From the IMG/VR virus record IMGVR_UViG_3300042691_023925, positions 1-25,939 of that record: a stretch of 25,939 nucleotides of DNA; one strand, written 5' to 3'. This DNA comes from a virus. The position numbers were made by a program, and so were the translations under genes. This document shows positions 2,473 through 25,939 of this stretch, piece after piece (positions within the stretch are counted from its first letter, which is position 1; every line of letters starts with the position of its first letter). The notes under the pieces were generated by a model, which did no database searches, had not been told where the DNA came from, and saw only the letters and a program-made list of their open reading frames with translations.

Positions 2473-4398
2473 TCAGTCCCAGAACGAGGATCTCGCCGGC
2501 GCTTGACTCGGCGCCTCAGCCGCCGGCTGCACTGGCGCTGCCGTTGGCTCATGCTCCACCACGCCGCTCGTTGCCCCTTCCTCTGCCCACCGCTCATCGC
2601 TCCAGCGGTCTGCACCAACCAGCGCTGCAGCCGCCCTGGCATAGACCCTGCAGTCGAGGGCCTCGTTGCGCGGCCGCGTCTTGATCCACTCGAACTTCGT
2701 GTACCCCCGCCGGTCGATCGTGTTGGTCAGCCGCTCGGCGCACAGCTGCCGGAAATACTCCTCGCCGTGCATCGGGAAGTGGCACCAGCCGTGCGGCAAC
2801 AGCTCCCCGTCATCCTCCGGCAGCCGGCGCCGCAGCCACCCATAGAGCTCGCTCTTGGCCGTGCTGGTCCCGACCGGCCAGATCTTCACCCCGCCTCGCA
2901 GCGCCTTGCCATTCCGCAGCACCTCCACCCGGCTCGGCGTGCCGATCACACTCACCTGGGTCTCGACGCCCTTGATGGCGATCACCTGGTTGCCCGGCTG
3001 CTTCCGCACCCACCGCTTCACCTCCTCGGTCCTGAAGCCTGAGTCGATCGCCGTCATCCGGATCGGCAGCCGCTGCCCATCACCCCGCCCAAACTCCGAC
3101 CGGATGAACTTCGACAGCTCCCGCCACACCGCTGGCTCGGCCGTGTCCCCAGCCAGCACCTGGTAGTCCAAGCTCCAGCTCTCCATCCCCGGCGCCCAGC
3201 CCACCACCTCCAGCTCGATGCGGTCCTTTTGCACGTCCACGCCGCAGGTGATGAACACCACCTGCTCCGGCACCGTGCCCAGCTCATAGGCCTCGCGGCG
3301 GTTGTACAGCGCCTCCCAGTCCGGCGCCTCGCCGTCGTCGTTCCAGCACTCCGCCAGCACCGTGTTGGTCCAGGGCTTGAGGTCGGCCGGGTTGTCCTTC
3401 GCCTTCTCATACCCCACCGCTGCCTCGGTCCAGCTGAACCACCCCAGCGGGCTGTAAAGCCCCGACAGGTGGTAGCCCTGCACCAGCCGCTCTGGGTGCT
3501 CAGCTTCCCACCAGTCGTCGCTCCACACGTCCGGGTCATACCACCAGGCCTTCGCGTCTTCCTCGATGCCCTCGCCGCACTCCTCGCAGATCAGCACCGG
3601 CGGCTGCCGCAGCGTGTTCGGCAGGCCCGGGTCCTTCGGGTCGTACCGCATCCGGTCCCAGCTGATCACCTGCCGATGCCCACAATGCGGGCAGGGGAGC
3701 TTCAGCACCTGCTTGTTGCTGTCCTCCCACTTGTTCCAGATCGCACTCCGCCCCGCGATCGTTGGCGTCGACGTCCAGCACTTCTTCGCCCTGGTGCCGA
3801 ACGTCCGCGTCCTGGCCTCCACGATCGCCAGCGGGCTGCCTTCCTCGTCCACGTCCGCCGGCCACCGGTCGATCTCATCACCAGCCAGGAAGCGGATCGG
3901 CATCGACGCCAGGCCCGACGCTGCATTCGCGCCGCCCAGGATCAGGAAGCCCCCGGCGAACTCCTTCATCAGCATCGTGTTGCCGCCGTCCCGCTCCCGC
4001 GGCGCCTTCACCTTCTCCTGAAGGCTGGGGCTGGCCTCGATCATCGGCGCGATCCGCATCTTCGAGTACCGCTTCGCCAGGTCGATCGTTGGCTGCACGA
4101 ACAGCGTCGGCGCTGGCTGGATGTCCATTGCGTAGCCCATCCAGTTGTTCAGGCTCTCGCTCTTGCCCAGCTGGGCGCCGAACACCATCACCACCTCCCG
4201 CACCTTGCTCGTCGCCGAAAGGTCATTCATGGCCTTGCGGAGGTAAGGGGTTCGCGCCGTTCTCCACGGCCCGTGCTCACTCGAGGCCTTCGGGCTCAAG
4301 ATCCGCCGCTCATCCGCCCACTCGCTCACCGTCAGCAGCGGGTCAGGCAGCAGCCCCCGCCAGAACGACTCGAAGCACAGCTCAGCGGAGGCGGGCAT
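2473..4398 (-). CDS. Terminase large subunit, lambda gpA family (GpA-type ATPase/nuclease)
   Basis: The DNA-packaging motor: it cuts concatemers and translocates DNA into the prohead using ATP. The 641 residues match the family. The Walker A-like segment FGAQLGKSE is at residues 73-81, and Walker B LAGDEIDRW is around residues 171-179. A zinc-ribbon-like insert has CPHC at 236-239 and CEEC at 271-274. The nuclease domain begins near residue 384 with CGVDVQKDRIELEVVG, whose Asp388 is the expected first metal ligand. The last 40 residues are Ala/Pro-rich. The start overlaps the small subunit by 17 bases. The full-length motifs suggest an active enzyme. Confidence 0.95.
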   Translation of the reverse strand: MPASAELCFESFWRGLLPDPLLTVSEWADERRILSPKASSEHGPWRTARTPYLRKAMNDLSATSKVREVVMVFGAQLGKSESLNNWMGYAMDIQPAPTLFVQPTIDLAKRYSKMRIAPMIEASPSLQEKVKAPRERDGGNTMLMKEFAGGFLILGGANAASGLASMPIRFLAGDEIDRWPADVDEEGSPLAIVEARTRTFGTRAKKCWTSTPTIAGRSAIWNKWEDSNKQVLKLPCPHCGHRQVISWDRMRYDPKDPGLPNTLRQPPVLICEECGEGIEEDAKAWWYDPDVWSDDWWEAEHPERLVQGYHLSGLYSPLGWFSWTEAAVGYEKAKDNPADLKPWTNTVLAECWNDDGEAPDWEALYNRREAYELGTVPEQVVFITCGVDVQKDRIELEVVGWAPGMESWSLDYQVLAGDTAEPAVWRELSKFIRSEFGRGDGQRLPIRMTAIDSGFRTEEVKRWVRKQPGNQVIAIKGVETQVSVIGTPSRVEVLRNGKALRGGVKIWPVGTSTAKSELYGWLRRRLPEDDGELLPHGWCHFPMHGEEYFRQLCAERLTNTIDRRGYTKFEWIKTRPRNEALDCRVYARAAAALVGADRWSDERWAEEGATSGVVEHEPTAAPVQPAAEAPSQAPARSSFWD

Positions 4399-21949: not shown

Positions 21950-22647
21950 CCCCCTCTCGCAACTGCCCCGCCTGCGGGGGCACGCATGTCCGCGTGCCGC
22001 TCAGCCACCGGCGCAGCTATGGCGTCTACCGCCGGCTGGAGTGCTGCCACTGCGGCCACCGCTGGACTGACCGAGAGGCGAAGACCGGCACACCCCCAGC
22101 GCCGCGCCAACAATGCCCAGAGTGCAGCTCGACCGACACTGCTGTGATCGAGTCGCGCATCATGCCCTATGGCCGCCGGCAGCGGGTGCTGTGCCGCGGC
22201 TGCAGCCACCGATGGACGAACAGGATCGGCGACATGCAGCAGGCCCGCACGCACGCACGCCGCGACGCGGGCGAACTCACCGAGGACGAGGTGCGGTTGA
22301 TCCTCACGTCGCCCCGATCGCTCCGGTCATTGTCGGTGGAGCTGCGGGTAAGCCCAGCCACCGTGCGCGGCGTGCGCACCGGTGAACTGCATGCCCAGGT
22401 CGCGCCCGATGTGCCCAGGCTGCAGGGCCAGCCGCGGCGGCGGAGCTGCACCAGCTGTCGGTTCTGGGATCCCGAGGCTGTGCGGCCGTGCACGGAAGGG
22501 TGGCCGGATCCGGAGACGGACGGGCCCGGGTACGCGAACGAGTGCGACGACTACTCACCAAAGCGTGAAGGATTGTTACGAACCCATACCGTCGCCGGGG
22601 CGGGCGGGGATGATTGCCTCAGCGGCACATCCCCTCATGCCCTCTGA
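21946..22647 (+). CDS. Protein with tandem NrdR-like zinc ribbons, HTH and Cys-rich tail
   Basis: A 233-residue protein from a GTG start. It has two zinc ribbons: Cys7-Cys10 with Cys33/34-Cys36, and Cys57-Cys60 with Cys83-Cys86. The second (QCPECSSTDTAVIESR, then RVLCRGCSHRWTN) reads like the ribbon of NrdR, the regulator of ribonucleotide reductase, but no ATP-cone follows. A HTH-like part comes next (EDEVRLILTSPRSLRSLSVE; RVSPATVRGVRTGEL), then a C-terminal Cys module (SCTSCRFWDPEAVRPC; ANECDDY). It is likely a DNA or RNA binder. The start overlaps the upstream stop by four bases. The last 25 residues are low-complexity. Confidence 0.7.
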   Translation: MTPSRNCPACGGTHVRVPLSHRRSYGVYRRLECCHCGHRWTDREAKTGTPPAPRQQCPECSSTDTAVIESRIMPYGRRQRVLCRGCSHRWTNRIGDMQQARTHARRDAGELTEDEVRLILTSPRSLRSLSVELRVSPATVRGVRTGELHAQVAPDVPRLQGQPRRRSCTSCRFWDPEAVRPCTEGWPDPETDGPGYANECDDYSPKREGLLRTHTVAGAGGDDCLSGTSPHAL

Positions 22648-23990: not shown

Positions 23991-24547
23991 GCACACCACA
24001 CCTTGAACCGAAGCAACTGGACGTCCCCCAGGTGCTGGCCCGCGACTGGATCAACCGCCACGGCACCTTCCGCACCGTGAGCACTGGCGGCCAAAGGGAG
24101 CGCACCGGCACCGACTGGGGCATGGTGATCACCGAGGCCGCTCGGTGGGGCCAGCGGCTGGGCTGGGATGCTCGCGGGGCCACTACGGGCTTGGCAGAGC
24201 GGAAGGCCGCGCCACCCCTGCGCTGCCCCGCTGCCAACACCATCGCCGAGTGCGGCGGGCCCTGCGAGCAGGACTTCCGCCTGTGCGACTGCGGGCTGCT
24301 CCAGAAGATGAACCCGCAGCGGGCTGCTGTCGCCACCACCGAGGCCCGGCCTGTTGGGTTGGTGGAGAGGGTGGCGGAGGCGATGCAGCCCGGCACGTTT
24401 GACTGGTCCGCCTACGAAGACGAAGCCCGCGCCGCAATCCGCGAGGTGGCCAAGTGGTTGGAGCAGCAGCAGGAAGTGCCGATCGGACGCAGCACGGCCA
24501 GCGCTGACTACTTCGCCGCCATGCTGGAGCAGGAGACCGACCTATGA
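23987..24547 (+). CDS. Hypothetical protein with Cys cluster
   Basis: A 186-residue protein starting MSTPHLEPKQLDVPQVLARD. The middle has a Cys-rich cluster (LRCPAANTIAECGGPCEQDF, then RLCDCGLLQ) that could bind zinc. The C-terminal part is helical (GLVERVAEAMQPGTFDWSAY; EDEARAAIREVAKWLEQQQE). No family recognised. It overlaps both neighbours by four bases. Confidence 0.6.
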   Translation: MSTPHLEPKQLDVPQVLARDWINRHGTFRTVSTGGQRERTGTDWGMVITEAARWGQRLGWDARGATTGLAERKAAPPLRCPAANTIAECGGPCEQDFRLCDCGLLQKMNPQRAAVATTEARPVGLVERVAEAMQPGTFDWSAYEDEARAAIREVAKWLEQQQEVPIGRSTASADYFAAMLEQETDL

Positions 24548-24801
24548 CTGACCAATTTCCTGACGCCACGAAAATGGTCCTCTCCCCAGCAGCTCAAGCG
24601 GTGCTGGATGGGGTGATTGAACAGTGGGATGCCGATAGGCGCCCTATTGCATCACCGTTGGCCGCTGCCGCTCTCCGCGTTGCTGCGGATAGAACGATGA
24701 GCCTAATCGGCGACATCTGCCATCCGAAGTACATGGAAGGCATCGAAGCAGCATCGGATTTCCTGGAGCGCATCGCCGCCGAGCTGGAGAACCACCAATG
24801 A
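24544..24801 (+). CDS. Small LSPAAQA-type protein, copy 1
   Basis: An 85-residue protein starting MTDQFPDATKMVLSPAAQAV, followed by helices (LAAAALRVAADRTMSLIGDI; FLERIAAELENHQ). It shares the LSPAAQA opening and the AAAL...A helix with the following gene, suggesting a tandem duplication. Function unknown. It overlaps the previous stop and the next start by four bases. Confidence 0.6.
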   Translation: MTDQFPDATKMVLSPAAQAVLDGVIEQWDADRRPIASPLAAAALRVAADRTMSLIGDICHPKYMEGIEAASDFLERIAAELENHQ

Positions 24802-25004
24802 CCCCGCCCCTCTCCCCAGCGGCTCAGGCCATCGTGGCCGCGTTCGACGAGCGCTACGAGCTGCTTGGGCCGCTGGAAGGCAACTGGCAGGAGGCCTGCC
24901 TAGCCGCCGCCCTCACAGCCCTGGCGGTCCGTATCAAGGGCGCCCCTGGCATCCGCCAGGACGTGCTCGACATCGTGAACGAGCTGGAGAGGACCGATGC
25001 CTGA
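24798..25004 (+). CDS. Small LSPAAQA-type protein, copy 2
   Basis: A 68-residue protein starting MTPPLSPAAQAIVAAFDERY, then EACLAAALTALAVRIKGAPG and a helical end. It is a shorter relative of the preceding gene: both read LSPAAQA near the start, and the DNA there differs at few positions. Function unknown. It overlaps its neighbours by four and eight bases. Confidence 0.6.
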   Translation: MTPPLSPAAQAIVAAFDERYELLGPLEGNWQEACLAAALTALAVRIKGAPGIRQDVLDIVNELERTDA

Positions 25005-25161
25005 CCACCTGATCATCGACGCCAGCCGCCAGCCGTCGCAGATCCGCTGCCTGCATTGCGGGTTCGCTCAGGATCTGCAGCTGCCCATGGCAATCAAGGA
25101 GCTTGTGGCCCTGGAGCGGCGGATCAATGCCGAGCACAAGGCCTGCAAGCCGCCTCGCTGA
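24997..25161 (+). CDS. Small zinc-finger-like protein
   Basis: A 54-residue protein starting MPDHLIIDASRQPSQIRCLH. Residues Cys18 and Cys21 (CLHC), with His47 and Cys50 (HKAC), could form one zinc site, with a helix (AIKELVALERRINAEHKA) between. This fits small phage zinc-finger regulators. It overlaps the preceding gene by eight bases and is the last gene before the 221-base spacer in front of the integrase. Confidence 0.6.
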   Translation: MPDHLIIDASRQPSQIRCLHCGFAQDLQLPMAIKELVALERRINAEHKACKPPR

Positions 25162-25164
25162 GCT

Positions 25165-25183
25165 GTGGGAACTGCGTGGGAAC
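25165..25183. repeat. Tandem GTGGGAAC pair, first cluster
   Basis: Two copies of GTGGGAAC at 25165-25172 and 25176-25183, spaced exactly one helical turn (11 bases). A near copy GTTGGAAC lies at 25209-25216. Confidence 0.75.
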
Positions 25184-25362
25184 GGATCTGAGCTGATCCC
25201 CGTAACCCGTTGGAACGACTAGGCTTTACGCCTGCGCATCACTTGATCTTGGTTCACATGACCTGGCTTACCGGCGGATCCTCTGGCATCCTCGGGGCCA
25301 GGTTTTCTGCGGATGGACCTTCCTTGCGGAATCGTCTACATCACCCCGGATCCTCGGAGTCT

Positions 25363-25381
25363 GTGGGAACGGTGTGGGAAC
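25363..25381. repeat. Tandem GTGGGAAC pair abutting the integrase start
   Basis: Two copies at 25363-25370 and 25374-25381 with the same 11-base step, ending one base before the integrase ATG. Binding here would cover the ribosome site region, so it could autoregulate the integrase. Confidence 0.75.
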
Positions 25382-25382
25382 G

Positions 25383-25939
25383 ATGAAGCTGACCAAGACC
25401 GTGGTGGAGCGCGCCACCCCCCGGGCCCAGCGGTACCGGCTGAACGACTCCCTGGTGCCGGGCCTCGCCCTGCTGGTGCTCCCCTCCGGCGCCCGCACCT
25501 GGTACCTGAGGCACCGGGTCGACGGGCGCCAGCGTGAGCTGAAGCTGGGCACCCCGGCCGAGCTCACCCCCGACGATGCCAGGCGGCTGGCCAGGGAGGC
25601 CCTCGCCCGCGTGCGCGAGGGGGGCGATCCTGTCGAGGAGCGCCGGCAGCGCCGGGAGGCCCCCACCGGCCAGGACCTCTACGAGCGCCACCGCCTGGCG
25701 CGGCAGGCCCGGCCCGGGTGGGTGACGGAGGACTTCATCTGGCGAAACCACCTGCTGCCGGCGTTCGGTCGGGTCCAGGTGGGGCGGATAACCACGCCGA
25801 TGGTGCAGGAGTTCTATGACCGGGCAGGGCGGCGGCCGGTCGCCCGCGCGGCGGTGCTGCAGCTGGCCAGGGCCCTGCGGCTCAGCGAGCGGTGGGGGTG
25901 GTGGGGCGACGGCCGGGCGCCGCGGCCCTGCCTGGGTGT
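25383..25939 (+). CDS. Tyrosine integrase, DUF4102-type (P4-like), N-terminal part
   Basis: The first 185 residues of a site-specific recombinase. The arm-binding domain (DUF4102) reads KLTKTVVERATPRAQRYRLN, DSLVPGLALLVLPSGARTWY, then LGTPAELTPDDARRLAREAL. A core-binding SAM-like region follows (DLYERHRLARQARPGWVTED; LLPAFGRVQVGRITTPMVQE). The catalytic domain with the Arg-His-Arg-Tyr set lies beyond the right edge. It would integrate the phage into the host chromosome. The ATG at 25383 directly follows two GTGGGAAC repeats. Confidence 0.9.
   Translation, partial: MKLTKTVVERATPRAQRYRLNDSLVPGLALLVLPSGARTWYLRHRVDGRQRELKLGTPAELTPDDARRLAREALARVREGGDPVEERRQRREAPTGQDLYERHRLARQARPGWVTEDFIWRNHLLPAFGRVQVGRITTPMVQEFYDRAGRRPVARAAVLQLARALRLSERWGWWGDGRAPRPCLG

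Follow-up and report, generated by a model that had tools for sequence, protein, structure and literature searches.

Phased repeat pairs upstream of a phage integrase gene as probable arm sites of an intact attP

The question raised by this locus is what function is served by pairs of a short repeat placed immediately upstream of a phage integrase gene. The window, i.e., the whole stretch of 25,939 nucleotides analyzed here, comes from IMG/VR as a virus record that is not linked to any host genome. The 8-mer GTGGGAAC occurs in it four times (n=4), all on the plus strand, with exact starts at 25165/25176 and 25363/25374, which bears out the two pairs with an 11-base step described in the initial annotation; no further exact copies were found on either strand over all 25,939 bases. 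The last pair was also correctly placed one base short of the int start, as the final copy ends at 25381 and is followed by one G and the ATG at 25383. Judged from sequence comparisons, 25163-25382 very probably represents an intact temperate-phage attP, in which the two pairs, R1 and R2 (Table 1), would be integrase arm sites flanking the attachment core.

Table 1. Features of the putative attP and of two related contigs (L175 and L211)
Feature	Location	Strand	Remarks
R1, putative P-arm doublet GTGGGAAC-TGC-GTGGGAAC	25165..25183	+	11-bp step; 22-mer 25163-25184; same place in relatives
Conserved TAACCCGTTG (YARNNNNTTG)	25203..25212	+	38 bp after R1 start
Putative attP core TCACTTGATCTTGGTTCA	25239..25256		minus strand ...ACC AAG ATC AAG TGA (T K I K stop)
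Putative strand-exchange region ATCTTGGTT, crossover interval	25246..25254		three natural A/B recombinant junctions, L175 and L211
R2, putative P'-arm doublet GTGGGAAC-GGT-GTGGGAAC	25363..25381	+	11-bp step; 22-mer 25361-25382
int, tyrosine integrase	25383..25939	+	arm-binding domain residues 3-89; gene runs off window end
277-aa protein	L175 8894-9727		between att sites
198-aa protein	L211 4277-4873		between att sites

Repeat pairs in the window and across the integrase family

The repeat unit is better taken as a 22-mer, the two copies of which are 91% identical and 198 bp apart. In a dinucleotide-shuffling test of 25161-25382 (20,000 shuffles), a single exact phased pair at a step of 9-13 arose in 379 cases and two pairs of the same 8-mer in none. 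When one mismatch was allowed, the 8-mer occurred 20 times in the window as compared to 22.6 expected; single near copies such as the one at 25209 therefore mean nothing alone. This near copy, GTTGGAAC, which the initial annotation had pointed out, is real and one mismatch off GTGGGAAC, but its reading as a further arm could not be maintained with one-mismatch copies at chance level. It is probably no arm, and the conserved YARNNNNTTG element overlapping it gives a better account of the site (25209-25216). This element starts 37-38 or 61-62 bp past the R1 start in 19/19 distinct att units, against an expectation of 1.6 from mononucleotide shuffles, although the 19 units are related and hence not independent. 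Read on the other strand, the element presumably resembles an IHF-type site.

Relatives were gathered with the int of the window and an alignment of ten full-length integrases. Close relatives were defined as 32 loci with at least 53% identity, and pairs were counted over 2.6 kb upstream with as many as 3 mismatches tolerated; both pairs were found in 25 of these loci. Among the other seven, L178 and L195 have one pair, L021 has one in range, and L091, L089, L182 and L187 have none; upstream DNA of L091 and L195 amounts to at most 106 bp. Ten of the 25 contigs with both pairs (8 distinct arrangements) have 0.55-1.9 kb between R2 and int, showing that adjacency of R2 and int is common but not universal. 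A lone R1 in L006 was seen with no core.

The motif was rejected as a general marker, as a bare pair was found in 81 viral stretches versus 50 in the reversed control. By tblastn, 23 of the 81 stretches match the integrase of the window, among them L031 weakly (26%), and two more (L017 and L066) are contigs with a cut integrase. Isolated phages yielded distant integrases only. A separate motif, CCAGTRGTGGGAACAAGGTGGGAACARGTGGGAAC, is present in three copies at 11-bp steps in a different lineage (L010, L011, L032, L034, L045, L048, L049, L059, L068, L069, L075 and L076); no relative of the window's integrase was found beside it in those viral contigs.

Integrases with an alignable start were available for 152 loci; 150 were usable and were reduced to 70 representatives, one per 80% identity cluster, all of them having 520 bp or more of upstream sequence. 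Doubling of an exact, non-simple 8-mer at period 11 within 150 bp upstream of the integrase was found in 32 of the 70 representatives, as compared to 0-5 for each other period from 8 to 25, and at period 11 none was found inside the gene or in shuffles. With 8 of 9 bases matching, a pair was present in 37/70 representatives; the 33/70 with no pair indicate that the family also uses other arm layouts. Even lineages of quite different sequence keep the 11-bp step. Moreover, of the representatives with a pair, 9/12 viral ones have their own motif pair a second time, 100-420 bp farther upstream (offsets of 197-261 bp; control with the motifs of other elements, 3/428), whereas 0/25 from genomes do (same control, 4/872); this is the contrast expected if integration parts the two pairs. 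A survey of titles and abstract beginnings did not yield a description of period-11 arms across this integrase family, which is weak evidence of absence.

Attachment core and integrated elements

The initial annotation had named an attachment core far away from the repeats as the finding that would speak against arm sites. This objection fails, as the core lies between R1 and R2 and is flanked by the pairs. Alignment of 21 R1-R2 stretches, one of which (L089) proved not to be an att unit, revealed two kinds of spacer. In the group of the window, TNAYTTNATCTTGGT is shared in place of a tRNA half. On the minus strand, all differences among relatives in this segment are synonymous in ACC AAG ATH AAR stop, with each of the three stop codons represented (TGA, the window; TAA, L050, L073, L088 and L090; TAG, L211), a pattern expected from a copy of the 3' end of a protein gene. 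No genome yielded a host gene ending in TKIK-stop, in a genome-contig scan without a cyanobacterial locus by title; the host of the window may be picocyanobacterial, given similar gene content. An integrated member of the window's own group was not found either, as a core-plus-R2 scan of viral contigs returned 8 contigs, all already known.

In the other spacer group, which belongs to sister integrases, the spacer carries a tRNA 3' half in antisense. Four of these loci were scanned with the Rfam tRNA model (cut-off 29), which matched the spacer in three, L030 just over the cut-off at 29.3 bits and L040 (28.5) and L054 (27.0) just under it; in the fourth, L038, the match is a whole tRNA outside R1. 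ARAGORN predicted a tRNA-Arg inside the L019 spacer. A whole tRNA-Met(CAT) lies about 4 bp outside R1 in L038 (948-1046), L180 (526-624) and L185 (9708-9805), and in these three loci the spacer is shorter (196 bp) and holds only part of the tRNA half. This tRNA-Met(CAT) may perhaps be a phage-carried replacement for a host tRNA broken by integration.

A comparison with the ends of integrated prophages, as called for in the initial annotation, was made for five of the 25 genome representatives, with each whole genome searched for its own pair. In all five of these distant relatives a second pair was present, and R1 and R2 each lie beside one copy of a tRNA half, which precedes R2 at the int end and follows R1 at the opposite end (5/5). 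These repeats are 34, 40, 47, 50 and 53 bp long. In three of the five, the R1-side repeat overlaps an intact tRNA called by ARAGORN (tRNA-Thr in L159 and L110, tRNA-Lys in L106); none was called there in L138 and L097. The two ends of L106 and of L097 are on different contigs, so that no end-to-end distance is given for them. The genome with L138 (G002) carries two extra R1-type pairs (L326 and L327) with similar sequence before them; the tRNA core repeat is absent beside both.

The P4-like geometry detailed below, the period of 11, the contrast between viral and integrated elements and the second pairs in 5/5 genomes together point to integrase arm sites. R1 would form the P arm and R2 the P' arm, each co-oriented doublet lying on one helix face, where the integrase encoded at 25383 would attach by its N-terminal arm domain. 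The core would imitate the 3' end of a host gene, such that integration restores that gene; the integrase would bridge arms and core to assemble the recombination complex, and integration would part R1 and R2 to the two prophage ends. Comparison bears out the architecture, the core, the parting of the arms on integration and the crossover interval.

The integrase as probable binder, and related systems

The 185 codons of int in the window match PF13356 (Arm-DNA-bind_3; E 9.2e-19), which we take to be the same as DUF4102. The integrase of L175 (same contig as L086) is 98% identical over those 185 residues and is full-length, with PF13356 and PF00589. DUF4102 is described in a tyrosine recombinase survey as an arm-binding domain of the IntSXT subgroup (PMC8138268). 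With L173 as reference, relatives that have a tRNA core and keep GTGGGAAC show 77-89% identity over residues 1-88 and 28-35% over residues 95-185. Arm domain identity is 67% in L196, 73% in L178, where the motif is GTGGGGAC, and 34-49% in lineages with other arm motifs. R1 and R2 also change in concert, e.g., L196 has GTGGGACC in both pairs. On these alignments the arm motif tracks the arm domain, and the core tracks the core-binding domain. Since motif and arm domain change together, the integrase is favored over Xis as the candidate binder, and the arm-site reading of the initial annotation, which had named Int or Xis, gains strong support from the comparison: the pairs flank the core, the motif follows the arm domain, and the pairs are found at integrated ends.

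Such attachment sites are already known from phage P4, and by sequence the site in the window is a further member. The P4 attP (NC_001609) likewise has two co-oriented arm doublets around a core, upstream of an arm-domain integrase; in this record the doublets are at 3942-3965 and 4151-4174, with a 12-bp step, and the core is at 4078-4097. Pair centers lie 75 and 134 bp from the core center in P4 and 76 and 122 bp in the window, and an arm repeat touches the int start codon in P4 as well, R2 in the window reaching to 1 bp before the int ATG. P4 differs in its 12-bp step and GGGGGCAT-type sequence, as compared to the 11-bp step and GTGGGAAC of the window, in an inverted copy over the int start and another copy inside int, and in a core that is not of the TKIK type. 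An 8-mer is likewise doubled in the attP of helper-embedded PICIs, where its two copies share one orientation and lie 81 and 132 bp from the attP center; integrase arm domains are suggested there as binders, with AlpA or an unknown protein also left open (PMC10111431). The PICI motif is, however, a different one (TGTATTGC, step 12 as printed), and PICIs are satellites targeting prophage late genes; the motif is reported not to be found in other PICIs (PMC10111431).

It is quite improbable that the pairs serve as operators for a separate repressor, or as Xis/RDF sites controlling int and recombination, rather than as integrase arms. The position of R2 on the int start, the suitability of doubled sites for a dimeric regulator and the binder left open in PMC10111431 would fit such a regulator, but motif and integrase arm domain vary in step, the P4 record annotates this layout as attP arms, and the pair is kept in the 10/25 contigs in which R2 is not next to int. 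Chance or low-complexity spacer repeats can practically be dismissed: even though a bare pair is not rare in viral DNA (the 81 versus 50 stretches above), two equal pairs were found in 0/20,000 shuffles, the 11-bp step is kept in lineages of quite different sequence, and the family-wide period test, the viral/genome recurrence contrast and the integrated-element ends contradict this explanation.

With the pairs read as integrase arms, R2 covers the ribosome-binding region of int, so that arm occupancy would probably repress int. For KplE1 intS, an attL overlapping the integrase promoter is reported to go along with negative autoregulation, as found by experiment (PMC2951348). In KplE1 and in the window alike, att arms reach into the start region of the integrase gene; KplE1 has a mapped promoter (PMC2951348), whereas in the window no sigma-70-like promoter was found at 25000-25500. 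Autorepression of int through R2 occupancy, and with it the coupling of int expression to attP occupancy suggested in the initial annotation, is plausible from the position of R2 and the KplE1 precedent, although the 0.55-1.9 kb between R2 and int in 10 of the 25 contigs speaks against it.

Single genes between attachment sites

In two contigs, each arrangement of which is also present in another sample, a single gene lies between two att sites. The order is R1A-core-R2B, a 277-aa ORF, R1B-core-R2A and int in L175 (and L176), and R1A-core-R2B, a 198-aa ORF, R1B-core-R2B, a gene and a cut integrase, reduced to residues 267-388, in L211 (and L210). Here, A is the att type of the window and B the type seen whole in L211; outside the core, about half of the aligned positions match between the two (30/58 left, 50/91 right). 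Read from left to right, the first site of L175 goes from A (49/52) to B (88/90) and its second from B (52/52) to A (97/100), and the first site of L211 goes from A (52/52) to B (90/90). All three A/B junctions are at the shared ATCTTGGTT, as integrase recombination predicts. The core-to-core units are 1161 bp (L175) and 973 bp (L211) long, and the inserts have common ends around unrelated, similarly sized genes.

No function was obtained for the 277-aa or 198-aa protein from Pfam, PADLOC or PHROGs; one weak PHROG match (E 0.0042) has no function attached. Relatives of these proteins are encoded in other viral contigs (L303, L304 and L307-L311), in which no GTGGGAAC-type pairs were found around the respective genes. 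In L021, a doubled right half surrounds a 49%-identical relative of the 277-aa ORF.

These sequences suggest that the single genes in L175 and L211 were inserted through the attachment site, in a cassette-like capture by a phage integrase. On balance, we lean slightly toward a scar, i.e., toward integration of a whole phage into the attP of another, followed by deletion down to a single gene that is no mobile cassette. Integration of phage in phage plus deletion requires no new mechanism, and the cut integrase of L211 (residues 267-388) indicates that deletions happen at such loci, and no free circle was seen; against a scar stand two inserts that share both ends around unrelated genes of similar size, and the occurrence of each arrangement in two samples. 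It is rather doubtful, though conceivable, that the phage integrase takes up circular single-gene cassettes of 1.0-1.2 kb and stacks them in its own attP upstream of int, in the manner of an integron. Each cassette would then consist of one gene and a complete armed att site, and A- and B-flanked cassettes could recombine because the 9-bp crossover and the phased arm code are shared.

Integrons hold gene cassettes with attC sites, and tandem accretion of integrative elements is found in chromosomal islands. Both resemble L175 and L211 in that single genes lie between direct-repeat att sites beside an integrase; L175 and L211 differ in having complete armed att sites in a phage genome, in place of attC or chromosomal islands, and in that mobility is a candidate property. 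Att-flanked single genes in phage were not described in the titles and abstract beginnings surveyed, again weak evidence of absence.

Genes do change sides of the attachment site: a small gene is located upstream of R1 in the window (24544-24801) and downstream of the last R2 in L211 (5230 onward), the two copies being 98% identical in DNA over 210 bp. A leader-like sequence, GAAGGATTGTTACGAACC, is present in the window (22567-22584), L174 (6028 and 8267), L175 (7114), L184 (4270) and L211 (2605 and 4233); it precedes several different genes and directly follows R2 in some relatives, and may be a promoter, a leader or a point of recombination.

Should the att-flanked genes be mobile, gene-cassette capture would be among the activities of phage integrases. 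The matched arm domains and motifs across lineages make an arm-recognition code testable. In addition, an 8-mer doubled at an 11-bp step and found again 200-260 bp away in the same orientation represents a sequence-independent signature, which would locate the attP and both integrated ends for many arm-domain integrases, with no need for the host site.
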